Below are positions 9,942-60,152 of a DNA stretch of 64,000 nucleotides, one piece after another. This DNA comes from Anaeromassilibacillus sp. An250 (GTDB lineage Bacteria; Bacillota; Clostridia; Oscillospirales; Acutalibacteraceae). Both the position numbers and the translations under genes were made by a program. A model generated the notes under the pieces. That model saw only the letters and a list, made by a program, of their open reading frames with translations. It did no database searches and had not been told where the DNA came from. Numbering within the stretch: the first letter of the stretch is position 1; every line of letters begins with the position of its first letter. Location: contig NZ_NFJK01000009.1 of the NCBI RefSeq assembly GCF_002159845.1, positions 62,001 through 126,000 of the forward strand, in the 5' to 3' direction.

Positions 9942-9953
9942 CAGGAGGGAACC

Positions 9954-12963: not shown

Positions 12964-12968
12964 AGAGA

Positions 12969-13192: not shown

Positions 13193-13236
13193 TCTGCCGG
13201 AGAGATTGTGCGTTCGCATAAAATTGCGATACGCTC

Positions 13237-13265: not shown

Positions 13266-13347
13266 ATAAGTCAAGTGTGCATTAAGGCCCGTTCTTTGAG
13301 AATCACCTTACAAAATATCTGTATTATCTGGAAGAAGGAGAGAGTAC

Positions 13348-13590: not shown

Positions 13591-13596
13591 TTGTAT

Positions 13597-16086: not shown

Positions 16087-16087
16087 T

Positions 16088-18448: not shown

Positions 18449-18461
18449 GGAGGAAGATGCT

Positions 18462-22667: not shown

Positions 22668-22678
22668 GGAGGTGCAAA

Positions 22679-25009: not shown

Positions 25010-25021
25010 GGAGGGATACTC

Positions 25022-26473
25022 GTGACCGAAAAACTTCGGGATTGTTTCGATGAAATGGTCGTCTACAAGGATTTGAAGAAAAGCAACTTCTTTTCTGCGT
25101 TAGGTCTGCCATCGTTTTTGAGAGACTGGCTGCTCAAAAAGTTTGCTGATGATGAAGGTAATCTGGACATAGACGAACTTACGGATTTTATCCGCACCTA
25201 TCTTCCGAATAAAGAAGAATGGGTCAGAATCAAAGATAGAATCATTAACGATAACGAGCGTGTCAAACTCCTGACCAAGATTTCTGTCGATATAAGCATA
25301 AAAACCGGAGAAATCACCTTTTCATTGCCCGACTTCGGTTTGACAAATAAAGAAACCATGATTGATGTGTCTACATGGGATCAGTATCGTGGAGAGCTTA
25401 TCAGTGGGCAGGAGGTCTGGGGTGTGGTCGAGCTCGGCTATCGACCCCCGGATGACACTGCGAAGCCTAAAATTCCAGGGAAAATTCGCCTTACTGGATT
25501 TACAAATTTCTGCCCTTATACTATTGACCTTGATTATTACAAGGATGTTCGGAATGAATTTACAACTTCCGAGTGGATTGATGTGCTGTTAGGGGCCATA
25601 GATTACAATGCGGGCGGGTATGAAAGTGAGGAACAAAAGCTTTCCATGCTGACACGCATTCTTCCCTTTGTGGAGAAACGCCTCAATCTGATAGAGCTTG
25701 CACCCAAAGGAACTGGCAAGTCCTATGTATTTGGCCATGTGAGTAAATATGGTCTTCTAACAGATGGCGGAAAGGTAACTCGGGCAAAAATGTTTTATGA
25801 TACCGCTCGGAAGACTCCCGGCTTTGTTACCGGCCACGACTTTATCGCAATAGATGAGGTAAAGTTGGTGCAGTTTGGCGATGTGAACGAAATGCGCTCT
25901 ATCATGCAGGGATATATGGAGTATGGACAGTTTAACATCGGTGGCTACGAGGGGAAATCTGATGCAGGCATCATCTTCCTGGGTAACATCGCACAGGATA
26001 ATATGGATGAGTGGCAGAATATGTTCTCCGAGCTGCCCTCACTATTTCAAGAAAGTGCATTGGTAGACCGAATCCATGGTTTCATCAAGGGTTGGGATAT
26101 ACCAAGAATGAATGATGATTTGAAGCTGTCCGGCTGGGCGTTAAATTCAGAATACTTCTGCACCATTTTGCACGAGCTTCGCAATGATGTGAGTTATAGA
26201 GCGATTGTTGATCAAATTATTGATGTTCCTGATAGGGCAGATACCCGTGACACGGAGGCCGTAAAGCGCATTGCAACAGCATATTTGAAGCTGTTGTTCC
26301 CGAATGTGCGGAGCGCACGGGACATCAATCCAAAGGGATTCCAGCAATATTGCCTTCGTCCTGCTGTCCGTATGCGTAAAATCATCAAACGGCAGCTTGG
26401 GATTCTCGATGTGGAGTTCAAGGGTAAGGATGTGCCTTCTTTCTCGCTGAAGGAGATTCCTTATGAAAATTGA
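25022..26473 (+). CDS. brxL: BrxL, short form: AAA+ protein without Lon protease domain
   Basis: A 483-aa protein with a GTG start at 25022 and GGAGGG upstream. The N-terminal ~200 residues are BrxL-like (SWDQYRGELISG type region around 115-130). The AAA+ module has Walker A APKGTGKS at 227-234 and Walker B FIAIDEV at 274-280. The protein ends soon after the AAA+ lid, so it lacks the C-terminal Lon-like protease part of ~680-aa BrxL proteins. A shorter BrxL family exists, so this may be normal for type 4 rather than a truncation. It overlaps the next gene by 11 bases. Confidence 0.85.
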   Translation: MTEKLRDCFDEMVVYKDLKKSNFFSALGLPSFLRDWLLKKFADDEGNLDIDELTDFIRTYLPNKEEWVRIKDRIINDNERVKLLTKISVDISIKTGEITFSLPDFGLTNKETMIDVSTWDQYRGELISGQEVWGVVELGYRPPDDTAKPKIPGKIRLTGFTNFCPYTIDLDYYKDVRNEFTTSEWIDVLLGAIDYNAGGYESEEQKLSMLTRILPFVEKRLNLIELAPKGTGKSYVFGHVSKYGLLTDGGKVTRAKMFYDTARKTPGFVTGHDFIAIDEVKLVQFGDVNEMRSIMQGYMEYGQFNIGGYEGKSDAGIIFLGNIAQDNMDEWQNMFSELPSLFQESALVDRIHGFIKGWDIPRMNDDLKLSGWALNSEYFCTILHELRNDVSYRAIVDQIIDVPDRADTRDTEAVKRIATAYLKLLFPNVRSARDINPKGFQQYCLRPAVRMRKIIKRQLGILDVEFKGKDVPSFSLKEIPYEN

Positions 26474-26669: not shown

Positions 26670-27794
26670 GTGAAGCGTTTTATCTATGCGGATAATGCAG
26701 CCACAACACAACTGGATATTGATGCGTTTGAGGCGATGCAACCATATCTTTTAGAAGAATACGGAAACGCTTCGCAGCCCTATTCATTTGCGAGAGCGCC
26801 CAAAAAAGCTCTGCGGGAATCGAGGGAAATCATTGCCCAGTGTATTGGCGCTCAACCTGACGAAATATTTTTCACTTCAGGTGGTACGGAAAGCAACAAC
26901 TGGGCAATAAAGGGAACTGCATTTCTCGACCCGGAAAAACACGGATTTATAACATCAGCCATTGAGCACCATGCGATTTTGCGTCCGTGCGCTGATATTG
27001 AAAGAATGGGCTATCCCGTTTTTTATCTGCCGGTAGATTCTACCGGCAAAGTAAATACCGCAACGCTGTCAGAACACATTGCACCGGATACTCGGCTGGT
27101 TTCTATTATGGCCGCCAACAACGAGATAGGCTCCATTCAGGACATTCCAGCGTTAGCTGCCATTGCTCATTCCGTTGGCGCAATGTTTCATACCGATGCT
27201 GTTCAGGCGGTTGGACATATCAAAATAGATGTGAACGATCTTGGTGTAGATATGCTTTCTGCTTCCGCCCACAAATTCCATGGTCCCAAAGGTATCGGCT
27301 TCCTGTATGTCCGAAAAGGGACGCCGCTGGCTCCATACGCAAGTGGCGGCAGTCAGGAAAACCACATGAGGGCGGGCACAGAGAATATCGCATCTATTGT
27401 AGGTATGGCGGCTGCATTAAAAAAATGTGTAGATGGACTGAAAGATACAGCGGAGCATTTAACTCGGCTGGAAACCAAACTAATCATGGGCTTGTCAGAT
27501 GCGAATGTACGATTTTCCAGAAATGGGAGCGCAGCACATATCCCCGGGAACATCAGTCTCTCTTTCCCCGGCTACAGTGGTGAAGCCCTCTTGCACCGAT
27601 TGGATTTGATGGGAATCTGTGTCTCTACTGGTTCAGCCTGCAATAGCAGAGAAACACAAATATCCCATGTGTTGCAGGCGATTAAACTGGAGCCAGAACT
27701 GGCAAAGGGAACAATACGATTGTCGTTAGGAAAGAACAATACAGAAGGCGATATCGACGAAATCGTTGATGCACTTTTGCGAATTTTGAAGTAG
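26670..27794 (+). CDS. Cysteine desulfurase (IscS/NifS/DndA class)
   Basis: A 374-aa PLP enzyme with a GTG start at 26670. It takes sulfur from cysteine as a persulfide. The PLP lysine is K202 in SASAHKFHGPKG. The persulfide cysteine is C324 in STGSACNSRE, and the N-terminal YADNAATT motif is present. It is the last gene of the BREX operon, which makes it the natural sulfur donor for BrxP, as DndA is for DndC. It could also serve general Fe-S assembly for the two BrxP clusters. Confidence 0.93.
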   Translation: MKRFIYADNAATTQLDIDAFEAMQPYLLEEYGNASQPYSFARAPKKALRESREIIAQCIGAQPDEIFFTSGGTESNNWAIKGTAFLDPEKHGFITSAIEHHAILRPCADIERMGYPVFYLPVDSTGKVNTATLSEHIAPDTRLVSIMAANNEIGSIQDIPALAAIAHSVGAMFHTDAVQAVGHIKIDVNDLGVDMLSASAHKFHGPKGIGFLYVRKGTPLAPYASGGSQENHMRAGTENIASIVGMAAALKKCVDGLKDTAEHLTRLETKLIMGLSDANVRFSRNGSAAHIPGNISLSFPGYSGEALLHRLDLMGICVSTGSACNSRETQISHVLQAIKLEPELAKGTIRLSLGKNNTEGDIDEIVDALLRILK

Positions 27795-40615: not shown

Positions 40616-42157
40616 ATGCCACAGGCCAAACTCATCTCGCCCATCACCAGACAGGAAATTCGGAAAGTCCGAGTCGCTGCCTACTGCCGGGTATCTTCCA
40701 ATTCAGCAGATCAGCAGAACTCCTATGCCAACCAGATTCGGGTCTATACCAGCCTCATTCAGAGAAAAAAAGAGTGGGAACTGGTGGAGATCTTCGCGGA
40801 TGAAGGGCTGTCTGGCATGAAAGCGCAGAACCGAACCGAATTCCAGCGAATGATCAAGATGTGCGAACAGCACCAAATCGACCTGATCGTCACCAAGTCC
40901 GTCTCCCGCTTCGCCCGAAACGCCAAGGAGTCTCTGGAATATGTCCGGAAGCTGAAGCTGCTCGGCGTGGGGGTGCAGTTCGAGAAAGAGGGAATCTACA
41001 CTCTGGCCCTCGGGGATGAAATGCTCCTCAATACCTTCTCTGCCATTGCGCAGGAGGAGTCCAAGGCTATTTCCCAGAACCAGCGGCTTTCCATCGTGAA
41101 ACGGATGCAATCGGGTGAGTATGTGGACAGCAACGCTCCATACGGTTTCCGGCTGGTGGAAAAGGCACTGGTGGTCTATGAACCGGAGGCGGCCATCGTC
41201 CGCATGATGTTTGAAAACTACCTGAGCGGCCAGTCTACATCGGAGATCGCCCGCGACCTTAACAGCCGCGGCATCAAAACTAAGACCGGGAAATCCCTCT
41301 GGCGCTCCACCAAGGTGGCGTACATCCTTGGGAATGAACGGTATTGCGGCGATTGCAAATACCAGAAAACCTACCGTGACACCACAGTCCCGTTCAAACA
41401 GTTCCGAAATCGAGGCCAGGAGGATATGTTCTACGCCTCCATGACCCACGCTCCGCTCATTGACCGAGAAACCTTCGACAAGGTCCAGACCCTCCTGAAA
41501 AAGCGTCAGGATATCTTTGGGAAATCCACAGCGCAAAATATCTATCCTCTTACGAGCCGCATTCAGTGTTCTGAGTGCGGCTCGTATTTTCGCAGGCGGC
41601 AGGTTTCCGGGACCGCCAAGTGGGGATGTTCCAAACACATTCAGGATCGCACCCAATGCGACTCGAACTACTACAGTGAGGATCGGATCTATGATGCCTT
41701 CATCGCCATGGTCAACAAGCTTCGGTTCTCCGAATACGACATTCTGGGTCAAACCCTGCTCCGCCTGGAATCCGCCGAGCTGAAACAAAAGCGGAAAAAC
41801 ACAGCCGCAAGGGAGATCAGCCGGAGCATCGCAGATCTCAATGCCAAGCTGGTGATGGTGGAACAGCTCCATGCAAAAGGATACCTCAAAGACGAGGTCC
41901 ACAAAGCTCAGGTGCAGGATATCAACGACCAACTGCGCCAACTGAAGCGTGAGCGCCAGTGTGAATTCTCCTCGGGCATCACCGATATAATCGAGGAAGT
42001 GACACGGCTGAAAAAACTGCTGGAGGAGTTGGAAGAACCCCTGGACCGATTCGATGAAAAGCTGTTTGCCGAGATTGTCCAGGCCATCCGCATCACCCGC
42101 CGGGATGAAATGACGGTCACCCTCATCGGCGGGCTGCGATTTACAGAAATGCTCTGA
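40616..42157 (+). CDS. Large serine recombinase 1
   Basis: A 513-aa protein. The resolvase-type catalytic domain has Ser27 in VAAYCRVSSNS, the SRFARNAKE arginine region near 95, then the recombinase domain (residues ~165-280), a zinc ribbon (CSECGSYF ... CSKH ... C) and a C-terminal coiled coil. It integrates or excises the element by serine-covalent strand exchange. A ribosome site AAAGGGG precedes ATG 40616. First of three tandem genes. Confidence 0.93.
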   Translation: MPQAKLISPITRQEIRKVRVAAYCRVSSNSADQQNSYANQIRVYTSLIQRKKEWELVEIFADEGLSGMKAQNRTEFQRMIKMCEQHQIDLIVTKSVSRFARNAKESLEYVRKLKLLGVGVQFEKEGIYTLALGDEMLLNTFSAIAQEESKAISQNQRLSIVKRMQSGEYVDSNAPYGFRLVEKALVVYEPEAAIVRMMFENYLSGQSTSEIARDLNSRGIKTKTGKSLWRSTKVAYILGNERYCGDCKYQKTYRDTTVPFKQFRNRGQEDMFYASMTHAPLIDRETFDKVQTLLKKRQDIFGKSTAQNIYPLTSRIQCSECGSYFRRRQVSGTAKWGCSKHIQDRTQCDSNYYSEDRIYDAFIAMVNKLRFSEYDILGQTLLRLESAELKQKRKNTAAREISRSIADLNAKLVMVEQLHAKGYLKDEVHKAQVQDINDQLRQLKRERQCEFSSGITDIIEEVTRLKKLLEELEEPLDRFDEKLFAEIVQAIRITRRDEMTVTLIGGLRFTEML

Positions 42158-42174
42158 CGGAGAGGAACCTCAAA

Positions 42175-43080
42175 ATGAAGAAGATACGCTATATCCCATA
42201 CGGTTACACTATGCGGAACGGAAGGACAGTCATCGCACAGGATGAAGCTATGGTCATCCGTGAGATATTCAGCGCCTACATCAACGGCGCTTCCCTCCAA
42301 AGCATTGCCGAACTGTTGACTGAAAGGAAGATCCCCTACAGCGAGAGGACGGATGTGTGGGATAAAGCCCGTATCGCAAGAATCATAGGAAACGCCAAAT
42401 ACCTCGGAGATGGAGAATATGACCCCATCATCGAGGAGGAGCAGTATGAGGAGGCTGCTGCGGTGCGGACAGCCCGCCAGCGGAACACCTTCGAGAAAAA
42501 TCTGGAGGGGATCGACCTGCTCCGGAACCGGGTCCGGTGCGCGGAATGCGGGGCGCCAATGCGGAGGAGAGTAAGCAACAGGCACCGGATTCGGGAAAGC
42601 TGGGAATGCACCAATGCGGATTGCGGACAGCGCATACGAATTTCCGATACGCATCTGCTGGAAAAGGTGACGATCCTGATGAACCGCATCATCGCTAACA
42701 GCCACCTGCTCATACCCCGCCCCAAAAAACGAAGGGAGTTGTCGGCAGAGGCTCAGCAAATCAACAGGGAAATCGATGCCGAACTGGAGCGGGATAATCC
42801 CAGTGACGCCCTGGTCATCGCCAAAACAATTGAGATGGCGGAGCAGCTGTACGCAGAGAGCGATACACATCTGCAGATCGCCGCATCCATCGCCCGAAAA
42901 CGTGTGCGCATGATGACGCCCCAGGAGGAATTCAGTCCGGCCTACTTTAGTGACATCGTCGCCTATCTGACGCTGGGAAGCGGAGGACAGGTGATCCTAC
43001 ATACCAAGACCGACGTAGAGATCGGAGGGGATGAAAATGAATGTAACCAGGATACCGAAAAAGACCATATCGGTCATTGA
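42175..43080 (+). CDS. Recombinase lacking the catalytic domain
   Basis: A 301-aa protein that begins directly in the DNA-binding recombinase domain (KKIRYIPYGYTMRNGRTVIA), followed by a zinc ribbon (CAECGAPM ... CTNADCG) and a helical tail. The serine catalytic domain is absent, and upstream sequence belongs to the previous gene, so this is not a recent frameshift. GAGAGG precedes ATG 42175. It overlaps the next gene by 44 bases. It could assist synapsis or att recognition. Confidence 0.88.
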   Translation: MKKIRYIPYGYTMRNGRTVIAQDEAMVIREIFSAYINGASLQSIAELLTERKIPYSERTDVWDKARIARIIGNAKYLGDGEYDPIIEEEQYEEAAAVRTARQRNTFEKNLEGIDLLRNRVRCAECGAPMRRRVSNRHRIRESWECTNADCGQRIRISDTHLLEKVTILMNRIIANSHLLIPRPKKRRELSAEAQQINREIDAELERDNPSDALVIAKTIEMAEQLYAESDTHLQIAASIARKRVRMMTPQEEFSPAYFSDIVAYLTLGSGGQVILHTKTDVEIGGDENECNQDTEKDHIGH

Positions 43081-44683
43081 GCCGAAGCGCTCGCTGATCG
43101 TCAACAAGGAGCAATATCACCAGCGCCGGGTTGCCGCCTACTGCCGGGTATCCACTGACAGCGAGGAACAGCTTACCTCCTACACCAACCAGAAAAAAGT
43201 GTACACCGAAATGATTGCCGCCAAGCCGGAGTGGGAATTTGCCGGCCTGTACGCTGATGAGGGCATCTCAGGAACTCGAGCAGATAAACGGCCCCAGTTC
43301 CAAAAGATGATCAACGACTGCCTGGCAGGAAAAATCGACTATATCATCACCAAGTCGGTCTCCAGATTTGCCAGAAACACTGTTGACTGCCTGGACCATG
43401 TGCGTATGCTCAGGGCAAGAGGGATTGGCATCTACTTCGAGGAGCAAAATATAGACACACTGCAAATCGACAGCGAGCTCTATCTGGTCATCTACGCAGG
43501 GTTCGCACAGTCTGAATCCGAAAGCATCAGCAAGAATGTCACATGGAGCTTTCGGAAGCGATTCCAGGACGGCAAGCCCGTATTCAATTATAAGTGCCTG
43601 CTTGGATACCGAAAGGGCGAGGACGGAGAACCGGAGATCGTCCCGGAGGAGGCATCCATCGTGGAGAGAATCTTCAATATGTACCTGTCAGGTGAAACCA
43701 TCAACCGGATCTCAACCAAACTCAGAGAAGAGAATCTCCAGATACCAGGAAAACGATTCTCCTTCTCTGCGAGCATGATTAAGGGTATTCTCCGGAATGA
43801 ACGATACTGCGGGGACAGCATCCTTCAAAAGACGGTCACAATTGACTGTATTGGCAAGGTCCGTCGCAAAAACACGGGTGAGGCACCCATGTACTATGTA
43901 CAGAATAGCCATGTTGGTATCATCAGCCGAGAGCTCTTTCACAAAACGCAGGAAGAACTCGCCAGGCGGATGAGTCGGGAGCCAAACTCCACCAAAGCAG
44001 CCACTACGGCCACCGGAAAATACTCCCGGTATGCGCTGTCCAATGTGATGATCTGCGCCGAATGCAGGAGCCGATACAAGCGCGTGACCTGGACATCCCG
44101 TGGGAAAAAGCGGGTGGTCTGGCGCTGCATCAATCGATTGGACTACGGAAAGCGGTACTGCAAGTCCTCCCCTACAGTAGACGAGGAAGCGCTCCATGCT
44201 GCTATCGTCCGGGCGGTCAACCGCTTCAATGAGGAAGACGAGGCCACCTATCTGGCACTTATGAGGGCGACCATTGGGGAGGCCATCGGGCTGAACGGGA
44301 ACAGCGATGAAATCGACCTGCTTCGCCGAAAAAACGATGGTCTGAACCGCAAAATGGTGTCCCTCATCAATGAGAGCGTAGAGAGCGGCGAGGGCATTGA
44401 AAGCCATGAGGCGGAATTCAAGGAGCTTTCCGATACCATCGAACTCCTGCAAGGGAGAATCAAAAAGCTGGAGGACGCCCTCCTCTCGGACCAGGGGAAT
44501 GATGGCCGCATCCTCCAGCTGCAGCAAATCATCGCAGATCGTGCGTCGAGAAAGATGGAGTACGACGATACCATCGTCCACCAGATGATCGAGTGCGTAA
44601 AGGTATATCCCGACGGCAGGCTGGACATCATCTTCGGCGGCGGGTATCTCATCGAGGAAGCGCTCAATGAGGAAAACAAATAA
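43037..44683 (+). CDS. Large serine recombinase 2
   Basis: A 548-aa protein. ATG 43037 lies 8 bases from GGAGG; ATG 43031 is too close. Ser39 is in VAAYCRVSTDS, with TKSVSRFARNTVD, recombinase domain, zinc ribbon (CAECRSRY ... C), and a long coiled coil near residues 430-500. Complete set of catalytic residues. It ends the recombinase operon; the two active serine recombinases with a catalytic-less partner between them is a recurrent ICE arrangement. Confidence 0.93.
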   Translation: MNVTRIPKKTISVIEPKRSLIVNKEQYHQRRVAAYCRVSTDSEEQLTSYTNQKKVYTEMIAAKPEWEFAGLYADEGISGTRADKRPQFQKMINDCLAGKIDYIITKSVSRFARNTVDCLDHVRMLRARGIGIYFEEQNIDTLQIDSELYLVIYAGFAQSESESISKNVTWSFRKRFQDGKPVFNYKCLLGYRKGEDGEPEIVPEEASIVERIFNMYLSGETINRISTKLREENLQIPGKRFSFSASMIKGILRNERYCGDSILQKTVTIDCIGKVRRKNTGEAPMYYVQNSHVGIISRELFHKTQEELARRMSREPNSTKAATTATGKYSRYALSNVMICAECRSRYKRVTWTSRGKKRVVWRCINRLDYGKRYCKSSPTVDEEALHAAIVRAVNRFNEEDEATYLALMRATIGEAIGLNGNSDEIDLLRRKNDGLNRKMVSLINESVESGEGIESHEAEFKELSDTIELLQGRIKKLEDALLSDQGNDGRILQLQQIIADRASRKMEYDDTIVHQMIECVKVYPDGRLDIIFGGGYLIEEALNEENK

Positions 44684-45073: not shown

Positions 45074-46333
45074 ATGGCGCAGGACGAAAAGACCATCTAT
45101 GTATATGAAAATTGGCGTGGAGAGACCCCCACCCTGATGGGGCGGCTCCGCTGCAGCTTTATCCGGGGGCAGGAAACCTTCTCCTTCGAGTATGACCCCG
45201 CCTGGCTGACATCCGCCGAGAGTTCCTTCTCTCTGGACCCGGATCTGGCCCTCTACCGGGGACGGCAGTATGTGCCGCTGGACAAGCGGCTCTTCGGGCT
45301 GTTCGCCGACTCCTGCCCGGACCGCTGGGGCCGCCTGCTGATGCGGCGCAAGGAGGCAATTGACGCCAGAAAAGAAGACCGAAAGCCCCGAAACCTCACA
45401 GAAAGCGATTTCCTGCTGGGGGTCTACGATGAATCCCGCATGGGGGCACTGCGGTTCAGCCTGGAAGAGGGGGGAGACTTTCTCTCCAACGACAAGTCCT
45501 TCGCAACGCCGCCCTGGGTTCATCTTCGGACACTGGAAAACGCCTCTATCGCCTTTGAGAATGACGAAAGCGGCCTGAACGAAACATGGCTGCGGGAGCT
45601 TCTGGCCCCCGGTTCCTCTCTGGGCGGAGCAAGGCCCAAGGCCACGGTGCAGGCAGCGGACGGCGCTTTGTGGATCGCCAAGTTTCCGTCTAAGCACGAT
45701 GAATCCAACAGCGGCGCATGGGAGAAGGTCGTGCATGACCTGGCGCGGCTGTGCGGATTGAATGTCCCGGAATCCAGGCTGGAGACCTTCTCCAAGACCG
45801 GCAGCACCTTCCTGGTCAAGCGATTTGACCGGGATGGCCGCCGCCGTATCCATTTTGCCTCCGCCATGACTCTGCTGGGAAAAACCGACGGAGCCTCTGC
45901 GGCGGACGGGAGCAGTTATCTGGATCTGGCGGCGTTCATCCGCGCCAATGGGGCGGCTCCCAGGCAGGATCTGGCTGAGCTGTGGAAACGGATCGTATTC
46001 AGTATGGCGGTGTCCAACACCGACGACCACCTGCGCAACCACGGTTTCCTCCTGACTCTCACCGGCTGGCGACTGGCTCCGCTCTACGATGTAAACCCAG
46101 TCCCCACAGGCGACCGTCTCTCCCTCAATGTGAGCGAGTACGACAACACCATCGACCTGGATCTGGCGCTGGAGGTCGCTGACTACTTCGGCTTATCTCC
46201 CCAGGAGGCTCAGCAGGCGGCGGAGGAGATCTGCAAAACCGTATCCGGACACTGGGAGCAGCTGGCCGGACAGTATGGCCTCAGTCGGGGCGCTGTGGAA
46301 TATATGCGCCCGGCCTTTTCCCTCCGGCCATGA
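45074..46333 (+). CDS. hipA: HipA-like serine/threonine kinase toxin
   Basis: A 419-aa protein. A HipA N-terminal couple domain (residues ~10-125) precedes the kinase core with the Gly-rich loop SSLGGARPK (181-189), catalytic NTDDHLRNHG (315-324) and metal-binding LYDVNP (337-342). HipA kinases phosphorylate tRNA synthetases such as GltX and arrest growth. The target here is unknown. A decayed partial copy lies at 47343-47611, so the locus has been duplicated. Confidence 0.92.
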   Translation: MAQDEKTIYVYENWRGETPTLMGRLRCSFIRGQETFSFEYDPAWLTSAESSFSLDPDLALYRGRQYVPLDKRLFGLFADSCPDRWGRLLMRRKEAIDARKEDRKPRNLTESDFLLGVYDESRMGALRFSLEEGGDFLSNDKSFATPPWVHLRTLENASIAFENDESGLNETWLRELLAPGSSLGGARPKATVQAADGALWIAKFPSKHDESNSGAWEKVVHDLARLCGLNVPESRLETFSKTGSTFLVKRFDRDGRRRIHFASAMTLLGKTDGASAADGSSYLDLAAFIRANGAAPRQDLAELWKRIVFSMAVSNTDDHLRNHGFLLTLTGWRLAPLYDVNPVPTGDRLSLNVSEYDNTIDLDLALEVADYFGLSPQEAQQAAEEICKTVSGHWEQLAGQYGLSRGAVEYMRPAFSLRP

Positions 46334-46376
46334 AATTAAAAATGGACCATTCCCACAGGAACCGTCTCCATCGAAG

Positions 46377-47342: not shown

Positions 47343-47611
47343 TTTTAAGCATGAACGATGTATCTACCAACGGCGAATGGGGTAAGGTCGCATAATCTGG
47401 GGCGGCTGTGGATTAGATGTCCCGGAATCCAGCCCGAAGACCTTCTCCAAGGTCGGCAGTACCTTCCAGGTCAAGCAATTTGACAGGAACGGTCGCCTCC
47501 GCATCCACTTCGCCTCCGCTATGACACTACTGAGAAAAACCGATAGAGCCTCTGCGGCGGACGGGAGCAGTTATCTGGATCTGGCGGCGTTCATCTACCC
47601 TCCGGCCATGA
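47343..47611 (+). pseudogene. Internally deleted remnant of hipA
   Basis: Bases 47343-47597 align to hipA codons ~206-289 (for example GSSYLDLAAFI is retained), with single-base losses near 47387 and 47402. The match then jumps straight to the last bases of hipA (CCTCCGGCCATGA). The start, kinase loop and catalytic motif are missing. Together with intact hipA it brackets the segment 46334-47342. Confidence 0.8.
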
Positions 47612-47616
47612 AATCA

Positions 47617-47654
47617 CAAGCGGACGATTCCCTGGGGAGTCGTCCGCTTGTTTA
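47617..47654. terminator. Bidirectional terminator
   Basis: A perfect 11-bp stem CAAGCGGACGA/TCGTCCGCTTG (47617-47627 with 47640-47650), a 12-base loop, then TTTATT. It sits between the plus-strand hip remnant and the convergent ParB-like gene, whose last bases it touches. Confidence 0.7.
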
Positions 47655-48521
47655 TTCCTCGGGGTTATCTCCGAAGGAGTCCTCGTTCTCCTCCTCATCC
47701 AGATCTGTATCAATGTCCAGCCCTTCACTGTTCCCCACATTCTTCTCGTAGAGCCTGGTCCACTTAAGCGGATATTTACACTTTCGGTTGTAGGCAATAA
47801 GCATGGCCTCGGCATACCCCATGGAGCCGGGCCGCCGCTCCTTGGCGGTTCTGGAGAGCAGCTTTACCGACATCTCGCCCACCTTTTCCTTGAAGTTTTC
47901 ATCCTTCAGCGCATCTCCAAAGGTATGGACCAGGCGGGCAATGCCGTTGAGCATATTAGCGGAGAGAGAATTCATATCGCCCTCCCAAGTGCCCACACAG
48001 AGCCGAAGTGTCCGGTCCAGAACATGATAGCCGAACTTGTCGTAGATGCTTTCCAACGTGGACACAGCGCAAACCACCCCATAGTTTCTGACTTGGCCAA
48101 TGGAAAGCGAGTAGGACTCCACCAGATCCCGGATAATGAGCTGTTTCTGATTTCCGGCTTCGATATTTGCCATGAACACCTCATAGGGCTTTAAGGGTTT
48201 CACGAACTTCATCTGATTGGCGAAGATATCCGCCTCGTGCTCATAGTTGAGATCGTCGTAGATCATGCACCAGACCGGCGTGTCCCGAGAACCGGAGGCC
48301 AGCGCGACGATCTCCACCGTGTGCTGCCCATTGAACACATAGTTGACGCCGTTTCGTCGGCTTACCTTGACCGGATTGATCTGATATAGATCAAAGTGGG
48401 CTGCCGCATTCAGTACATGCTGTTCGGATATGTTTCGCTGATACTCCTGGTTGGACACCAGATTTTTAATGGGGATCTGCTCGAAATGGACATTGGGTAC
48501 AAACATGCTGAAATCAGCCAT
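47652..48521 (-). CDS. ParB-like protein, DUF6551 type
   Basis: A 289-aa protein. Residues ~15-85 have a ParB/sulfiredoxin-like fold with NPVKVSRRNGVNYVFNGQHT, the nucleotide-site region. The rest is helical and ends in an acidic tail (DTDLDEEENEDSFGDN). It overlaps the upstream ParB-like gene by 1 base. Probably DNA or CTP binding; it may help hold or maintain the element. No ParA is encoded nearby. Confidence 0.75.
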   Translation of the reverse strand: MADFSMFVPNVHFEQIPIKNLVSNQEYQRNISEQHVLNAAAHFDLYQINPVKVSRRNGVNYVFNGQHTVEIVALASGSRDTPVWCMIYDDLNYEHEADIFANQMKFVKPLKPYEVFMANIEAGNQKQLIIRDLVESYSLSIGQVRNYGVVCAVSTLESIYDKFGYHVLDRTLRLCVGTWEGDMNSLSANMLNGIARLVHTFGDALKDENFKEKVGEMSVKLLSRTAKERRPGSMGYAEAMLIAYNRKCKYPLKWTRLYEKNVGNSEGLDIDTDLDEEENEDSFGDNPEE

Positions 48522-49474
48522 TAGGAATCCTCCTCAATTGCCGCGAGCATCTCCTGCACCTTTTCTCCCAGCGCTGTTAAGGCTGCCTGCAAGTTCTCCT
48601 TGGCTGCGGGAGAGATGGATGCGAGATGCGCCATATTTCTGGTTCGCTCGATGGAGCTCATCCAGGAGGGAATGGTGAGGGTCAGTCCAGCCACCTCCGC
48701 ATCCGGATCATAGGCGGGCATCGTCTTGATGGCAGGCTGCTCCGCCGCCTGTATGCCGGGCTTAGAAGACGCCTCGGTGGAGAGGCTGCGCCGTGAATCG
48801 CTGTATCGGGCAAAGGCATAGGGATTGTTCCCGATTTTCTTACTGAGTTCCTTCAGCTCCGCAGGGGCCATCTCCGCCAGTGCCACAATGTTTTCGAAGG
48901 ATATCTTGTATGTCCCCGACAGGATGTGGGGAATCAATTCCGGCGCGGTTTTTGCAATCGCATCCAGCGCCACGCTGTATTTTGCATATTTTTGGACCGT
49001 TGCTCCAGACACATGATGCTCCTTTCCCAGACGGGCGGCGGTTCGTCGACTGCTCTCTTCCTCTACCGGACGGCCTCTTCCAACTGTGGCGAGGGGATTT
49101 GGGCAGTACTGATTATAGCCGTTCTCATTCCGGTGCGCTTTCTTTTCCGCCTCATACTGCCTGCCGATCAGATACTTCTTCGTCTCCTCTGAAATGTTGC
49201 GGCGACCGAGTTGATTGGAGCAGATCCAGGCGATTGCCGCATCCCGGTTTGGAAAAACCTGTTCTTTTACGCCATAAGGGATTTTCAATTTATTGCAGAT
49301 CTCGTATCGGTTATGTCCGTCTACAATGGTACCGTCCCAAACAACGATGGCCTCCCGGCAGCCCTCCATCACCAGATTCAGCTCCAGCTGCCGGTATTCC
49401 TCCCGCCGGAGAGGTCGAATCAGGTTTTTGAATTCCGGATCGATCCTGAGTTCCCTAAACCCCTTCTCTTCCAT
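48521..49474 (-). CDS. ParB N-terminal-domain protein
   Basis: A 317-aa protein. The ParB CTP-binding box GTIVDGHNRYEICNKL lies near residue 50. An HTH-like segment lies around 160 (RRTAARLGKEHHVSGATVQK). The tail is helical. It pairs with the second ParB-like protein just downstream and overlaps the small gene upstream by 20 bases. Likely a DNA-binding regulator of the recombinase cluster or a partition-like factor. Confidence 0.82.
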   Translation of the reverse strand: MEEKGFRELRIDPEFKNLIRPLRREEYRQLELNLVMEGCREAIVVWDGTIVDGHNRYEICNKLKIPYGVKEQVFPNRDAAIAWICSNQLGRRNISEETKKYLIGRQYEAEKKAHRNENGYNQYCPNPLATVGRGRPVEEESSRRTAARLGKEHHVSGATVQKYAKYSVALDAIAKTAPELIPHILSGTYKISFENIVALAEMAPAELKELSKKIGNNPYAFARYSDSRRSLSTEASSKPGIQAAEQPAIKTMPAYDPDAEVAGLTLTIPSWMSSIERTRNMAHLASISPAAKENLQAALTALGEKVQEMLAAIEEDS

Positions 49475-49862
49475 ATTGCCTCCTGCGCTCCTGCGGTTTC
49501 ACGGTTTGGAGGGAAAAATAGGCGACCCGGTTCACCGAATCGATCTCTCCTGTCAAATGATAATTGAACCGCAGATCGAAGCCACCGACAATCTCCGACA
49601 GATTGCTCAGCAAGGTAGAACTATAAAACTCTACGGATTGGTTGGTGTGAAAGCTGACACTGGACAATCGAACCTTATTTGCCGTTCCCCCAATCATAGG
49701 CTTGTCCGAGCCAAGAACGGCGATATAAAGTTCTTCCGGATTCACTAAAAACTGCACATAGGCAGGACTGCCCAGGCGGCGTATGGTTTTCTTGTGGATG
49801 CGGATTCGATTGCGAAATGGATCAAGGGTCAGCGAGGCTTGCGGTTGATTTTCTCGACTCAT
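49455..49862 (-). CDS. Free-standing copy of a recombinase C-terminal domain (small)
   Basis: A 135-aa protein. ATG 49862 (MSRENQPQASLTLDPFRNRI) follows GGAGG. The part SPAYVQFLVNPEELYIAVLG ... FDLRFNYHLTGEI ... VAYFSLQTV matches, motif for motif, the region NPVEMKFAVR ... LKYRIAGRL ... YIFDLND near the end of the recombinase at 50659-52539. No other family recognised. Confidence 0.7.
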   Translation of the reverse strand: MSRENQPQASLTLDPFRNRIRIHKKTIRRLGSPAYVQFLVNPEELYIAVLGSDKPMIGGTANKVRLSSVSFHTNQSVEFYSSTLLSNLSEIVGGFDLRFNYHLTGEIDSVNRVAYFSLQTVKPQERRRQYGREGV

Positions 49863-49872
49863 ATTCTGCCTC

Positions 49873-50658
49873 CTATGATGGATTCTGTTCTTCGCTTCCG
49901 TCCGGTATGGGAGCCTCCGCAATAGGCGTTTCTGGCGTAGAGGCACGATCCCGAAGCCCATACACCGCATATCCTTCAAAAATATCAACCTGCATGGATT
50001 TCTGATGTTCCCGGAACGGCAGGCCAAATTGTGTTTTCCAACCTTCCGGGAACACCGGCGTCCGGGAGGCTCTGGGCTTCTCGCCATCCTTCAGAACCCG
50101 CTGGTATACTTCGGTGGCAGTCAGGTCAAATGCGATAAGCCATTCATCCTTGGCGTGGATCACCCGTCCGAGGAGCTTGTATCGATAGTCCAGATTCCAT
50201 CCCATCAGAGAAAACACCTTGGCAAAGAAGATCTTGCAGGTGATTTGCTTCGGCTTTCGTCTGCCAGAGCCATTGGTACACCAGGCGCAGGCATCCCGGT
50301 CTTCTGCCTGACAGGGGCGGATCGCCAATATTTTGCTTTCCTGATTGACCAGCACCTGCACATAATCTACCTTCGGGAATCGATTCAGGCAGGCAGCATT
50401 TACATAGAATTTATAGTTGTTAAAGGTCACGGATGGCTCATTGATATGGGCAAAGAATTCCCGGCGTACCACCTGGTAGCCCTCGTAATTGAATTCCCGC
50501 TCCGTCTCCAGAACATCATCGCCTTCATGACCTGCCTGATGAACGTCCACTTCCATCTCCGGCATGACAGGAGCAATCCCGGCCGTCTGCTCCCCTTCCA
50601 GAGAACGGAGCATCCCGGCAATCACACCACCGGGTTTTTCGCCTCTCTCCTCGCTCAA
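49873..50658 (-). CDS. Free-standing copy of the same recombinase C-terminal domain (large)
   Basis: A 261-aa protein. It resembles residues ~430-625 of the neighbouring recombinase: YEGYQVVRREFFAHI versus MRGFEITRSEFFDNY, DYVQVLVNQESKILAIRP versus NHVELLVNPVEMKFAVR, GWNLDYRYKLLGRV versus GWSPDLKYRIAGRL, and FPEGWKTQFG versus VPEEWIHSFG. It has CAWCTNGSG in place of part of the loop. It starts 1 base before the recombinase stop on the same strand. Probably a partner of the recombinase. Confidence 0.78.
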   Translation of the reverse strand: MSEERGEKPGGVIAGMLRSLEGEQTAGIAPVMPEMEVDVHQAGHEGDDVLETEREFNYEGYQVVRREFFAHINEPSVTFNNYKFYVNAACLNRFPKVDYVQVLVNQESKILAIRPCQAEDRDACAWCTNGSGRRKPKQITCKIFFAKVFSLMGWNLDYRYKLLGRVIHAKDEWLIAFDLTATEVYQRVLKDGEKPRASRTPVFPEGWKTQFGLPFREHQKSMQVDIFEGYAVYGLRDRASTPETPIAEAPIPDGSEEQNPS

Positions 50659-52539
50659 TTATGGTTCCTCCTTTCCGCGCCGGTTGAATTCCTGGCGGAT
50701 ATAGTCTCTCAGTTCCTCAAAACCGGTCACATGGAGTTTTTGACCGGTTTCGTAAAGCTGCCCCTCTATGCGAATCTTCCAATCCTCCTCGCTCTGGTCA
50801 TGAACCTGCTGGAAAGATTGCTGGTGGAGATAATACTGCGTTCCAAAAGAATGAATCCACTCCTCCGGTACGGCGCGCACCCGCTTGCCAGAGATGGAGA
50901 GCGGCTGCACAGAATCATGGGAATCCTGCTCGCCTTGCTGACCGGAGAGCAGATAAGATTTGATAAACGCCTCTGCGTCATTGAGATCGAAAATATACGC
51001 TGATTCACTTTGGCTTTGAAAGAGCCGCCCGGCAATCCGATACTTTAAATCCGGGCTCCAGCCGAACAGCTGAAACAGCGTTTCCATATAGGCCGCACCC
51101 GCAATCTCTCTGGGCTGGTATTTCCCATCCACCAGTTTGGAGAACAGGACGGCATTGCGGTTGCCTTTTTCCGCCGTGCGGACAGCAAACTTCATCTCCA
51201 CTGGGTTGACCAGTAGTTCCACATGGTTGTCTTTCCCAAATGTACGAACACAAGCTGTGCTGAATTTGATCCTCTTATCCTGAAACTGAACATAAGGACG
51301 GTGGTAATTATCAAAGAACTCGCTGCGGGTAATCTCAAAACCCCTCATGTCAAAATCCCCAGGAGCCAGAGTGACACTGGAAAGAGGCGCTCTTTCTTCC
51401 GCCTGCTCATCGGGAGGATGGATACTGGCGGAAGCCTGAAAGTAATCCGCAGGTTTGAACCCGGCCCAGCGAGGGTTGATGGTTACAAAGCCTTTGAGCA
51501 GGCCGCTGTCAATCACCCGCAGCTCCGGGAGGATAGAGCGATGTCCATACTTGGAGTTGTTCAGAAGGTGCTGAACGGCAATGAAATCATCTCTGGAAAC
51601 AATGCCCTCGTGGTGATTCCGGTAAAGGCTCTGGGGGCGGTCGCCCCGATTCTTCCTGGACTTGTGGTTCAGGTAGTTCGGGGTGAAGGTCTTTCGGGTC
51701 AGCACATCCCCGCAATGACGCTCATTGCGAAGAACCTGAACAATGGAATTGGAGGTCCATTTGATATTTCCCAGGTAGGTCTTACGGCCCAGCTCGGTAA
51801 GCGCCGCCGCGATGTCGCTGGTGGAGTAGCCGTACAGATACATGTAGAAGATGAGCTTCACCGTAGGCGCTTCCTCCGGGTTGACCACCAGGTTTCCATC
51901 CCCGTCGTGAGAATAGCCCAGCAGCTTGGGCGTCAAAGGCAAGCCGCCGTCCAGCCGCATCCGCAGGGAGGTTTCCATGCTCCGGCTGCGGATATGGGAC
52001 TCCTCCTGCGCCATGGTGGCCTGAAAGGAAAGCGCCATCTGGGAATCATCCTTAAGGGAAAAGATACATTCGCTCTCGAAAAACACGCCCACCGGGCTGG
52101 GCAGTTCCGCCAGCATCCGGACCATGCTGATGCAGTCCACCACATTCCGGGCAAAACGGGACACGCTTTTGGTGATGATCATGTCGATTTTACCGCTGCG
52201 GCAGTCAGTCATCATGGCATTAAACTCGTCCCGATGGACGAGGGAAGTCCCACTAATGCCCTCATCGGCATAGATTTTAACCAGCGTCCAATTGGGGTGA
52301 TGCAGGACGAAATCCTCATAGTATTTCTTCTGCAGCTCATAGGAGGATGTCTGCTGGACATTGTCCGTGGAAACACGGGCATACACGGCGACTCGTTGCG
52401 GAATATCGTTGTCGTAGTAGTCGATAGGCTTCTTGGCAGGGATGAATTCGTAGTTCTCCGGGTCAACCTTTGTGTTGATCCGGCGGCGGACCCGTTCCTT
52501 TCGTTCTGCAAGCCGATTGCGGGTGGCCTTGTCAATCAT
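50659..52539 (-). CDS. Serine recombinase 3 with extended C-terminal domain
   Basis: A 626-aa protein. ATG 52539 (MIDKATRNRLAERKERVRRR) overlaps the upstream stop. Catalytic Ser57 is in VAVYARVSTDN, then TKSVSRFARNVVD, and a recombinase domain to ~350. It carries no obvious Cys4 zinc ribbon. After residue ~430 it has a ~190-residue extension shared with the two downstream proteins. It is distinct from the recombinases at 40-44 kb and probably belongs to a separate mobile unit. Confidence 0.9.
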   Translation of the reverse strand: MIDKATRNRLAERKERVRRRINTKVDPENYEFIPAKKPIDYYDNDIPQRVAVYARVSTDNVQQTSSYELQKKYYEDFVLHHPNWTLVKIYADEGISGTSLVHRDEFNAMMTDCRSGKIDMIITKSVSRFARNVVDCISMVRMLAELPSPVGVFFESECIFSLKDDSQMALSFQATMAQEESHIRSRSMETSLRMRLDGGLPLTPKLLGYSHDGDGNLVVNPEEAPTVKLIFYMYLYGYSTSDIAAALTELGRKTYLGNIKWTSNSIVQVLRNERHCGDVLTRKTFTPNYLNHKSRKNRGDRPQSLYRNHHEGIVSRDDFIAVQHLLNNSKYGHRSILPELRVIDSGLLKGFVTINPRWAGFKPADYFQASASIHPPDEQAEERAPLSSVTLAPGDFDMRGFEITRSEFFDNYHRPYVQFQDKRIKFSTACVRTFGKDNHVELLVNPVEMKFAVRTAEKGNRNAVLFSKLVDGKYQPREIAGAAYMETLFQLFGWSPDLKYRIAGRLFQSQSESAYIFDLNDAEAFIKSYLLSGQQGEQDSHDSVQPLSISGKRVRAVPEEWIHSFGTQYYLHQQSFQQVHDQSEEDWKIRIEGQLYETGQKLHVTGFEELRDYIRQEFNRRGKEEP

Positions 52540-53137
52540 GCAGCATTTCCCTCCCAGGCTGGTGATCGGGGAGGATCGTCCAATCAGGACCGGGCAGAAA
52601 ATACGGATCATGGAGATCCTCCCGGTAGTAGGAAGCCATTGTGTAGATATCCTCCGAAACAAAGTAAATGCCCACCGGCTTTGGCAGCGCCGCAAGAAGC
52701 CGGGCACAGAAAGAGAGCTCCGATAGTTTCTTGGAAATATTGCTTGCCTTCTGGGTGATCACCAGATCTACCTTGCCCTCATAGCAATCTTGCAGGAGTC
52801 TCGCCCATTCTGGAGCGTTTTCCATGTTCGGTGCGGTGCTTCCCTCATCCACATAGAAACCGACAAATTCCCAGTTCGGACAAAGAGCCAGCGTGTCCAA
52901 AAACTGCTTTTTGTGGGCGGAGAGATAATCCTCATAGCGGGTTTGGTTGAAGTAGCGAATGTATACCGCCACCCGGTGATGGTTTTTCGGAAGCGGGCGC
53001 TCCCGCCGAATGCCTTTTAACCAGGCACGATGCTCTGCCAAAAGCGCATTCTTTTCCGCCTCTCCTTCCAGCAGAAAATCAAAGGACGGCATGATCTCCT
53101 GCTCCATTGCTTCGCCCTTTATTGCCAGCTCTTCCAT
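52532..53137 (-). CDS. Catalytically dead resolvase-like protein
   Basis: A 201-aa protein covering only a resolvase N-terminal fold: RVAVYIRYFNQ (57-65), GFYVDEGSTAPN, LVITQKASNISKKLSE, GIYFVSEDIYT. In its neighbour the same places read RVAVYARVSTD, IYADEGISGTS and IITKSVSRFARNV. The catalytic Ser is replaced by Phe63, and the active-site SRFAR becomes SNISK. It is therefore not a recombinase but may pair with one. First gene of the minus cluster. Confidence 0.82.
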   Translation of the reverse strand: MEELAIKGEAMEQEIMPSFDFLLEGEAEKNALLAEHRAWLKGIRRERPLPKNHHRVAVYIRYFNQTRYEDYLSAHKKQFLDTLALCPNWEFVGFYVDEGSTAPNMENAPEWARLLQDCYEGKVDLVITQKASNISKKLSELSFCARLLAALPKPVGIYFVSEDIYTMASYYREDLHDPYFLPGPDWTILPDHQPGREMLHD

Positions 53138-53233: not shown

Positions 53234-53586
53234 GAACGAGAAAAAAAGATTCAGATTACAATGACTTCCGGCGAGCTGCAAACCCATTTCTACCCCAAGA
53301 CGAGCCCCATTGAGTCTTCTGCACCATATATGTACGATGAAGATAGTGAGATCGCAGTATTTTGCCACTCGGCTTTATCCTATCCAGGATGTACTGCCAT
53401 CCGTGCTACTCCTGAAAACGAAATGTGCATTGACATTATGTGATATAACACATATAATGAACATAGAGAGAAGGCGGTGGGTATGGAAAACTTCTCGGCA
53501 AAATACTACGAAACGACAGACGGTACTTAACCAGCTTAAAATTGCATTCTAATAGACTATTCGAAGTGGAAGGAATGGTTATCGGC
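53234..53586 (+). other. Stretch with gene remnants only
   Basis: A 60-codon frame at 53261-53443 has no ribosome site. A 15-codon opening at about 53483 (MENFSAKYYETTDG) ends at once in a stop and looks like the start of a lost gene. I see no functional gene here. Confidence 0.4.
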
Positions 53587-53898
53587 ATGGACAATAGCAT
53601 TGAAAAAAAGCGAATTGAGGGCGAAGAAGATCTCATTTCAACGATTAAAGTGGCAACTGCGGCTCTCCCTCTTATCTTCACAATTGCAGAAAAACTATCT
53701 AAGCAACATGGATTTATCCACGATAGCGTACCTGCTCGTTTCGGGGACAAAACTGGACGATTAGTTTGGGATTACATATTATACAATGAGATTACATTTG
53801 ATAGTGAGGACGGAAAAATAATTAGCCTTTTCACATCTCTTTCTGATGCAGAAACGAAGAAGCGCTGGGATGTTTTAGTCGACAAGTATGGGTTATAA
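53587..53898 (+). CDS. Small unknown protein, 103 aa
   Basis: Start uncertain: ATG 53587 is about 12 bases from GGAAGGA, ATG 53575 directly abuts it. The product (MDNSIEKKRIEGEEDLISTI) has a helical first half and a C-terminal part KISLFTSLSDAETKKRWDVL-like, acidic overall. AT-rich. It precedes a HigA-like XRE gene by 53 bases, but it does not resemble a RelE/HigB toxin. Confidence 0.5.
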   Translation: MDNSIEKKRIEGEEDLISTIKVATAALPLIFTIAEKLSKQHGFIHDSVPARFGDKTGRLVWDYILYNEITFDSEDGKIISLFTSLSDAETKKRWDVLVDKYGL

Positions 53899-53951
53899 CA
53901 TTAGACAGACATTATCGAGCGGACTACCAGCAGAGGAAGGAGGATTGACCT

Positions 53952-54245
53952 ATGGGCAAGAATTTTCGTGAAACTCTGAATGAACAGCTCCGAGATCCCG
54001 CATTCAAAGCCGAGTGGGATGCCCTCGAACCGGAGCGTCAGATCATGAGAGCGATTCTGGAAGGGCGCGATGAACAGTCGCTGACGCAAAAGCAGCTGGC
54101 GGAAGTGACTGGTATCGCCCAGGCAGACATCAGCCGTTTCGAAAACGGAACCGGCAATCCGTCTCTCCGCACCCTGAAAAGACTGGCGGATGGCCTGGGG
54201 ATGCGTCTCAAAGTGGAGTTCGTCCCCAAAAAACCAACTGCATAA
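53952..54245 (+). CDS. HigA-like XRE protein
   Basis: A 97-aa protein with AGGAGG before ATG 53952. A helical N-terminus precedes the HTH (SLTQKQLAEVTGIAQADISR then LRTLKRLADGLGMRLKVEFV). This is the layout of HigA-type antitoxins, but no HigB gene is adjacent, so it may be an orphan antitoxin or plain regulator. Terminated by the hairpin at 54248-54288. Confidence 0.82.
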   Translation: MGKNFRETLNEQLRDPAFKAEWDALEPERQIMRAILEGRDEQSLTQKQLAEVTGIAQADISRFENGTGNPSLRTLKRLADGLGMRLKVEFVPKKPTA

Positions 54246-54247
54246 GA

Positions 54248-54288
54248 AAAGCGGCGGGCCTTTGGAACACTCCTCGGCTCGCCGCTTT
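54248..54288. terminator. Bidirectional terminator
   Basis: AAAGCGGCG (54248-54256) pairs with CGCCGCTTT (54280-54288), flanked by A and T residues, between convergent genes ending at 54245 and 54287. Confidence 0.6.
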
Positions 54289-54646
54289 AATCGTTGTCTT
54301 CTCTTCTGGTCATGGTGGATTTCACTTCCCGGACGATTTTCAGGATGGAATCCAGTTCCTTGGGGGAGCAATCGGCCAACAGCTCGTCAAACTCACTTTG
54401 GTAGAGGCTCCGCACCTCCGGCACATCGGGCCGAAGCAGGGAGTCCGCTGACACCTGAAGCGCCTCGATGATCCGGATGAAGGACTCCAGTTTCATATTG
54501 GTCTTTCCCGTTTCAATAGCGCTGACATGAGGCAGGGAGATATTGGCCTTGGCTGCAAGATCTGCCTGGCTCATCCGCCGGCCGACTCGCGCCTCCCGAA
54601 TGCGGGAGCCAATCAGCTGACGCTCGTTCAAACCATGTTCCTCCAT
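54287..54646 (-). CDS. XRE-family regulator (subfamily with C-terminal helix)
   Basis: A 119-aa protein. HTH (RMSQADLAAKANISLPHVSAI) plus a C-terminal helix (PKELDSILKIVREVKS). Paralogue of the proteins at 30368-30685 and 54790-55173. Divergent from the latter; the two share a palindromic operator region. Confidence 0.85.
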   Translation of the reverse strand: MEEHGLNERQLIGSRIREARVGRRMSQADLAAKANISLPHVSAIETGKTNMKLESFIRIIEALQVSADSLLRPDVPEVRSLYQSEFDELLADCSPKELDSILKIVREVKSTMTRREDND

Positions 54647-54789: not shown

Positions 54790-55173
54790 ATGAGTCTTGA
54801 CTACAAAGCCATTGGCAAACACATCCGCGAAGCCCGTCGCCGCAACCATCTCTCCCAGGCAATGCTCGCCGAGGCGGTGGACAAAACCCCCTCTTACATC
54901 AGTTACATAGAGAGCGGCCTCAAAAGTATGAGCCTGGACACCTTTGTTCTCATCGCCAATGCCCTCGGCGTATCGCCGGAAAGGTTGTTGATGGAGCAGA
55001 TCACCGACACGGAACGGTGCGCCAGTGAGGAGATCACCTTGCTCCTCTCAGATTGCACCATCTGTGAGGCTCTCATTCTGCTGGACATGATGAAAGCCTT
55101 AAAGACAGCTCTGCGAGAACACCGGGAGAAGTGCATCGATTCGGATGCTTCCGATTTTACATTCCTGCTCTGA
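54790..55173 (+). CDS. XRE-family regulator (subfamily with C-terminal helix)
   Basis: A 127-aa protein with GGAGG before ATG 54790. HTH: HLSQAMLAEAVDKTPSYISY then LDTFVLIANALGVSPERLLM. The C-terminal helix CTICEALILLDMMKAL differs most from its paralogues. It is followed by a strong terminator at 55175-55222. Confidence 0.87.
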   Translation: MSLDYKAIGKHIREARRRNHLSQAMLAEAVDKTPSYISYIESGLKSMSLDTFVLIANALGVSPERLLMEQITDTERCASEEITLLLSDCTICEALILLDMMKALKTALREHREKCIDSDASDFTFLL

Positions 55174-60027: not shown

Positions 60028-60047
60028 ATCTTTATTGGTCTTACACT
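60028..60047 (+). repeat. Imperfect 20-bp direct repeat, copy 2 (att candidate)
   Basis: Second copy of the unit at 59905-59924, 123 bases further, directly in front of the terminator at 60055-60092. The 103 bases between the copies contain no gene. Confidence 0.45.
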
Positions 60048-60054
60048 CCAGACC

Positions 60055-60092
60055 GAGTCTGGACGCACGGCGCGTTCAGACTCTTTTTCTTT
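60055..60092 (+). terminator. Intrinsic terminator
   Basis: GAGTCTG (60055-60061) pairs with CAGACTC (60077-60083), with further pairing inside (ACGC/GCG-GT), then TTTTTCTTTT. Confidence 0.75.
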
Positions 60093-60152
60093 TCCGGGCT
60101 GGACCGCTCGCGCCGGAGACAGCATCTAAAGTGTCCATCCCATTTGTATGTA

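Follow-up and report, generated by a model that had tools for sequence, protein, structure and literature searches.

A domain shared by a zinc-ribbon-less serine recombinase and the two proteins encoded directly after it: candidate subunits of one recombination complex

Why should the gene of a serine recombinase be followed directly by two genes whose products resemble the recombinase's own C-terminal part? This question is raised by a 64-kb stretch of Anaeromassilibacillus sp. An250 (the whole stretch analysed, called here the window, to which all coordinates refer), for which a preliminary description had claimed that one domain is used three times, once fused to a serine recombinase and twice as separate proteins. 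We call the shared domain X, the recombinase REC and the two following proteins P2 and P3. REC (52539-50659, minus strand) is a protein of 626 amino acids in which a large serine recombinase (LSR) without zinc ribbon is joined to X. P2 (50658-49873, minus strand) is a free X-domain protein of 261 amino acids with an extra C-terminal stretch, and its TTG start lies directly after the REC stop codon, while P3 (49862-49455, minus strand) is a minimal free X-domain protein of 135 amino acids. Sequence comparison suggests that X is a separable, conserved partner of zinc-ribbon-less LSRs. The explanation that we favour, tentatively and a little short of calling it probable, is that REC, P2 and P3 form a heteromeric complex in which X replaces the zinc-ribbon/coiled-coil part, with a probable role in integration or excision.

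Homology and predicted fold of the X domain

Residues 395-577 of REC, which comprise the X domain and the stretch after it (50809..51357, minus strand, as calculated from the residue numbers), matched residues 55-223 of P2 in BLASTP with 27% identity and an E value of 2e-25. REC matched P3 at E 2e-6 with a common core of about 107 residues, and P2 and P3 as a pair reached only E 0.011. In profile-profile comparison the alignments of REC (22 rows) and P3 (21 rows) matched with a probability of 98.3 and E 2.4e-14, profiles of P2 and P3 with four rows each matched at 96.6% and E 5.6e-10, and hhalign with profiles from larger sets gave 1.8e-44 for the X domain of REC (RecX) with P2, 7.8e-24 for RecX with P3 and 2.5e-22 for P2 with P3. 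These E values, significant throughout, indicate that the likeness of the three copies is not due to chance, and together with BLASTP they bear out the threefold use of one domain. The further claim that the last ~190 residues of REC are paralogous to both following proteins held for P2, over about 183 residues, but for P3 only over the core of about 107 residues. The domain had been left without a name, and our scans with Pfam, NCBIfam and PHROG named no family for it either. Pfam gave a single weak match in P2 (0.2) and none for P3 or for two lone X proteins, NCBIfam gave none for P2 and P3, and the PHROG matches in P2 all lay above 0.1; a PHROG of unknown function matched REC residues 547-599 at 0.0095. 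In a sequence search of the PDB, P2 had 0 matches and the best match of P3 was CusF at E 0.07. The copies are basic, with a median isoelectric point of 9.2-9.4 in RecX, P2 and P3.

The catalytic domain of REC (PF00239, residues 50-189, 7.6e-23) contains the motif YARVSTD with Ser57, and this serine was kept in all 21 alignment rows reaching that position (counts of the motif leave out RECs cut by a locus edge and that of L022/L072, which show no N-terminal motif). The recombinase domain is found at residues 221-327 (PF07508, 6.9e-22). The zinc ribbon PF13408 gave no Pfam match in REC up to E 1, whereas all three proteins of a neighbouring LSR triple matched it. A model of REC (mean predicted local distance difference test score, pLDDT, of 71, with a poor C-terminus) was inspected for the coiled-coil synapsis motif and showed no long helix pair in residues 330-410. 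Residues 40-330 of this model aligned with serine recombinases (for example 9y66_A, Z 14.8, with large domain shifts), and 5 of the 50 structural rows shown extended past residue 600, in scattered alignments. As REC has no such ribbon, the second DNA contact that it lacks, and likewise the control of synapsis, may naturally be sought in X.

The AlphaFold2 model of P3 had a mean pLDDT of 87.6, and its top four structural rows were all MraZ (Z 4.7 to 3.9), the best of them aligning 88 residues at 3.3 A; the next unrelated family had Z 3.2. The two-half topology of the model weakly resembles that of the MraZ and AbrB-type swapped-hairpin proteins. These rows, the basic character of X and the existence of lone X genes would suit an explanation in which X is an AbrB/MraZ-like DNA-binding domain of the transcription-factor type and P2 and P3 are regulators of the operon outside recombination. 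We regard this as very unlikely, as hhalign gave no sequence support (E 0.41 with MraZ and 0.25 with the AbrB-type), a helix-turn-helix (HTH) gene is already present upstream in 63 of 64 loci and X is fused to a recombinase or encoded directly after one in most loci seen. Kinship of X with AbrB/MraZ, suggested by topology and the four MraZ rows but not by the sequence profiles, was not adopted, and a sequence search for an internal half-repeat in X found none. Two further candidates were set aside: a sliding-clamp fold, for which the top Foldseek row (E 0.016) had an unconvincing template-modelling (TM) score of 0.18, and gp105 of Lactococcus phage KSY1, the best BFVD match (TM 0.57, E 6.8e-5), which belongs to a PHROG of unknown function.

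Gene order and free copies of X

Relatives of P2 were detected in 19 genomes (that of the window among them) out of a sample of 295 from the order, in 19 of 50,697 phage records and in 1 of 72,556 plasmid records. A profile search of viral contigs gave 25 loci with P2 relatives and a scan of species genomes gave 204, of which the best 80 were kept for gene-order work. These 80 loci were found through the P2 motif, so that they are silent on how frequently P2 occurs alone. The order REC, P2, P3, PB1 and PB2 was nearly invariant among them, PB1 being a ParB-like protein (in the window at 48521..49474, minus strand; phrog_21315 at 1.7e-9 and phrog_4715 at 3.6e-5) and PB2 a ParB-like protein with DUF6551 (47652..48521, minus strand; PF20188 at 4.7e-32 and phrog_1033 at 1.6e-14). 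REC was located directly upstream of P2 in 75 of the 76 testable loci, the single exception (L236) having REC with a 91-nt overlap. P3 followed P2 in 77 of 79 loci and lay in an N-extended frame in the remaining two, PB1 was in place in 73 of 74 and PB2 in 67 of 67; L235, with a broken P2 and no PB1 found, stands outside these counts. Four loci contained a fourth X copy (Xmid). Three phage records that we viewed carry the label Ca. Heliusvirales, with their module genes labelled hypothetical protein, and the portions of the main text of the Ca. Heliusviridae paper available to us mention no recombinase, integrase or ParB (PMC9226167).

Upstream of REC the window encodes PsR (52532..53137, minus strand), a half protein of resolvase fold (PF00239 at 3.7e-7) with YIRYFN in place of the catalytic-serine motif, a replacement read in the window and in L035, L060, L061, L062 and L066. 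PsR was present upstream of REC in 35 of 71 loci (a 19.6-bit match in L045 was discarded as unrelated). An Xre-type HTH regulator is encoded upstream of the operon (54287..54646, minus strand; PF01381 at 5.4e-12), beside a second, divergent HTH regulator (54790..55173, plus strand; transcription-regulator PHROGs), and the interval from PsR to the HTH gene is about 1 kb longer in the window than in its relatives (break 53249-54294). The count of upstream HTH genes given above refers to distances of up to 2.5 kb and a five-sequence profile at 1e-5; since HTH genes are common in mobile elements, such a match is little evidence for a special family. PsR overlaps the start of REC, P3 overlaps PB1 and PB1 overlaps PB2, and these overlaps, together with the abutting REC and P2, resemble a tightly coupled operon. 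A defence role for the module was rejected, as PADLOC models matched 0 of the 6 module proteins at E 0.001.

We built a quick tree from the 118 X domains of 38 loci, on a short alignment (136 columns) that excluded, with three exceptions, 15 rows from loci without a recognised REC (mostly contig ends). In this tree P3 formed one clade with SH-aLRT 97, and P2 and RecX were separate save for a few rows (L056, L058, L067 and L068). The number of label changes in the tree was 6, compared with 58.4 in shuffles. L067 apparently joins a REC catalytic domain to a P2-type X. The X copies thus form three separately kept lineages. The best kept was P2, whose mean identity of 0.53 exceeded those of the 260 C-terminal residues of REC (0.37) and of P3 (0.33). 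The dN/dS ratios of all six module genes against seven relatives were 0.028-0.097, rough values with dS of 0.94-2.45 near saturation (for L168 and L170 a usable ratio was missing for most genes). The distances of the catalytic part of REC correlated with those of P2 with r 0.66 over 49 loci (9 of the 80 without a complete long module were excluded, and the remaining 71 were thinned) and with r 0.61 in the 18 loci with an LSR nearby; in these 18 loci the distances of module genes and of the neighbouring LSR gave r 0.26-0.45.

A simpler form, consisting of an X-less REC and one free X, was found in gut phages and streptococcal prophages. In L069 and L301 a recombinase of 400-405 amino acids, which ends just past the segment that precedes X in REC, is followed 6 nt later by one X protein, and L302 has the same layout in a frameshifted copy. 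PF13408 matched 0 of the 3 split recombinases scanned, and two ParB profiles found no match in L301, L302 or the 12-kb stretches L305-L307. With the X protein of phi-SsuHCJ31 as tblastn query we detected 20 phage records, of which ten are streptococcal and the other ten belong to the PV036 series. In 8 of the ten streptococcal records holding X, those listed for both proteins, X starts 17 bases past the last matched REC base, which is 14 nt past the stop codon where viewed; the tenth such record, YS771, is known from its tblastn match alone. In the prophage Phi1207.3 (AY657002) REC is orf2 and X is orf3, which matches the X profile with 78.8 bits and begins 14 nt past the stop codon of orf2. 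Judged from the coordinates of the two match listings, X and REC are adjacent in 9 of the 10 PV036 records, and in PV036438 X stands at the record end with REC absent among the matches listed. In PV036425 the X gene (L306:2805-3242) is hidden under a coding sequence annotated on the opposite strand.

X is separable in certain lineages and fused and multiplied in others, and in most loci seen its neighbour is a serine recombinase, of which it thus behaves as a subunit would; the lone X genes and Phi-m46.1 are exceptions. In the complex that we tentatively favour, REC, P2 and P3 would assemble on recombination sites as a single heteromeric unit in which REC would cut and join DNA and the X subunits would, in place of the zinc-ribbon/coiled-coil part, grip the DNA, serve synapsis and control direction. 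PsR, as a dead resolvase, and the two ParB-like proteins would likely be regulators; by analogy the ParB-like proteins could possibly add a nucleotide switch. The operon is probably switched by the product of the Xre gene, and the complex probably acts in the integration or excision of prophages, integrative and conjugative elements (ICEs) and defence islands. A multi-part recombination complex had been proposed before, with free copies that compete with or complete the recombinase. That the genes form a multi-part set finds good support in the near-constant gene order, the three kept lineages, the low dN/dS and the split form, in which X is present in trans only; the prophage Phi-m46.1, however, has X without REC. 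Of the two roles, completion fits better than competition, because each free copy is a lineage of its own and the split recombinase contains no X with which a free copy could compete. Another explanation, which seems unlikely, is that free X proteins would act as competitors or direction switches, binding REC via its fused X and stopping integration or turning it to excision in the manner of a recombination directionality factor (RDF). It would account for free X copies directly following REC, engineered integrase-RDF fusions are reported (PMC5737554), and PDB entry 9dxd holds SPbeta YokA together with YotN; but two different free copies are kept, the split recombinase offers no X to compete with, and supply from the same operon is ill suited to a switch made only on induction.

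Elements carrying the module and their other recombinases

In many loci only tens to hundreds of bases separate the end of PB2 from apparent host genes (mostly judged by eye), among them greA, argS, spmA, ftsH, cpaF and comEC, and REC as the sole integrase had therefore seemed attractive. Genome G327 contains a prophage of about 60-61 kb with the module beside comEC (PF03772), and G323, G324 and G325 have a PF00437-matching gene, read as cpaF, that is split by an island of about 20-22 kb with the module at one end. The position of the module at the end of these elements counted for the heteromeric complex. Among the cpaF-type islands (L256-L261) a fourth genome has the pieces on two contigs, and restriction-modification-like cargo was seen by eye.

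Several observations weigh against this complex as the agent of integration. In the G327 prophage the end away from the module holds a zinc-ribbon LSR pair, adjoining mgtE (the phage genes between module and pair were read by eye), and the cpaF islands carry three PF00589 tyrosine recombinases at the end opposite the module; the junction ends of these islands look more like the work of the tyrosine recombinases than of REC. The three PF00589 proteins presumably resemble the Tn554 trio. Another serine recombinase is found within 10 kb downstream in 23 of the 51 testable loci (28 are without). Phi-m46.1 has a 5'-shortened X (117 amino acids) directly after an acetyltransferase gene (L308:2857-3210), with no REC match upstream of it, and its sole recombinase matches are the ORF56/ORF57 pair at the other end, so that REC would be dispensable for some X-bearing elements. 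Co-inheritance and purifying selection are no proof of a complex. Lone X proteins of 127-130 amino acids (L070:6095-6487, L071:1255-1641 and L303:5001-5384) had no recombinase match in the stretches scanned. REC as the sole integrase is weakened by the tyrosine recombinases of the cpaF islands, the LSR pair of G327 and the REC-less Phi-m46.1, and REC is no more than a putative integrase of these elements, many of which carry other recombinases. In L072 REC is directly preceded by three more recombinase genes of its own strand (11913-16827).

Phi-m46.1 lowered our estimate of the heteromeric recombination complex and raised that of another explanation, which we still consider doubtful: the module would not integrate the element but would serve multimer resolution and upkeep of the circle, whether excised or replicating, with REC as a resolvase and PB1 and the DUF6551 protein as segregation factors. 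Two ParB-like proteins are encoded in nearly every module, one study reports binding of CTP or ATP by phage proteins in which DUF6551 is fused to a ParB fold (PMC12704722), the element often contains further integrases, and Phi-m46.1 combines an LSR pair with the lack of a REC match. On the other hand, no ParA-like gene was noticed among the module genes (no search with profiles was made), ParB profiles found no match in the five split-form loci given above, and in 4 of the 9 genomes examined (G329, contig C78; G330, C28; G333, C58; G335, C13) the module contig contained no other PF07508 or PF00589 match. The module of G330 is decayed, with a TAA within P2, and a search for the empty site of the G335 element found none.

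The window itself contains three tandem LSR genes (40616..44683, plus strand) convergent with the module. The first and third match PF00239, PF07508 and PF13408, and the middle one (42175-43080) matches PF07508 and PF13408 with the catalytic domain absent; many relatives have a gene for 281-303 amino acids flanked by two larger recombinases. The placement of the triple in the same element as the module rests on shared flanks. Six elements share their sequence up to TTGGTCTTACACTCCA (~60050), with one mismatch in G085, and the last conserved 16 bases before host DNA (60035..60050, plus strand) mark the right end, beyond which the sequences diverge, G085 and G214 being alike for the first bases. 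By eye, the element stops directly before a terminator-like hairpin of host DNA (60035-60120), and several relatives seemingly do likewise. The left end was searched for and not found, and among the inverted repeats around the module no pair of sites was convincing. Conjugation-type genes recognised by eye at 1-12709 (VirB4-, relaxase-, CHC2-primase- and VirD4-like) suggest that the element may be an ICE. A low-GC stretch at 16088-26473 encodes BREX-like BrxP, BrxC, PglZ and BrxL (PADLOC), and the next gene (26670-27794) looks by eye like one for a cysteine desulfurase. A HipA-like gene region is in part present twice (45752-46366 and 47407-47644; 87% over 189 nt and 79% over 47 nt), and the duplicates flank a gene for 284 amino acids without assigned function in a stretch that is missing from the aligned relatives.

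A possible class of integrase and its nearest known relatives

A further-reaching proposal, which we regard as rather doubtful, is that the module would represent a class of serine integrase with detachable control, in which a synapsis and direction domain, freed and multiplied into three specialised copies, would be combined with a dead resolvase and two nucleotide-binding ParB-like proteins, and the composition of the complex, perhaps together with CTP or ATP, would gate recombination. LSRs are tools for genome writing and the control of their direction is a standing problem, so a widespread natural class that seemingly splits control into separate conserved subunits would give a new handle on it. 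One portable module would also link gut phages, ICEs and defence islands.

No description of the X domain or of the module was found in the open-licence PMC literature, and we compared the module with known serine recombinases. The Ccr models of the staphylococcal CcrA/CcrB were the best NCBIfam matches of REC and PsR, but REC reached 77.1 bits with the CcrB model, whose cut-off is 900, and is not a member of the SCCmec Ccr recombinases. The catalytic and recombinase domains of the SPbeta (YokA/YotN) and phiC31 integrases, which are modulated by a partner protein, align with REC. In contrast to these canonical phage serine integrases, REC has no zinc ribbon match, and its partner is a paralogue of its own C-terminal domain.

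The nearest printed systems are those of the Dehalococcoides ssrA islands and of Phi1207.3. The DsiA/DsiB module of the former resembles the one described here in having an LSR, a serine recombinase with the catalytic domain only and a ParB-domain protein beside the attachment site; it differs in its RecF-like, Mom-like and RNA-polymerase-domain genes, and the portion of the paper at hand describes no X domain (PMC3146451). Phi1207.3, a conjugative prophage of streptococci, is located in comEC and has three serine recombinases, a layout that matches the G327 prophage; in the sections of the published account available to us, orf56/orf57 are proposed for excision and integration, orf2 is merely counted among three resolvases and orf3 is not described (PMC4260502). 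Like the window, Phi1207.3 has a zinc-ribbon-less recombinase (orf2, 370 amino acids) at one end with X (orf3) directly after it, and its zinc-ribbon pair orf56/orf57 at the other end has a counterpart in the tandem zinc-ribbon recombinases of the window. The two differ in that Phi1207.3 has one free X, no fusion and no ParB match, whereas in the window X is fused and multiplied; Phi-m46.1, a relative of Phi1207.3, has kept X without REC. The present comparison would place orf2 and orf3 of this resistance-carrying prophage in a common system with REC, P2 and P3.

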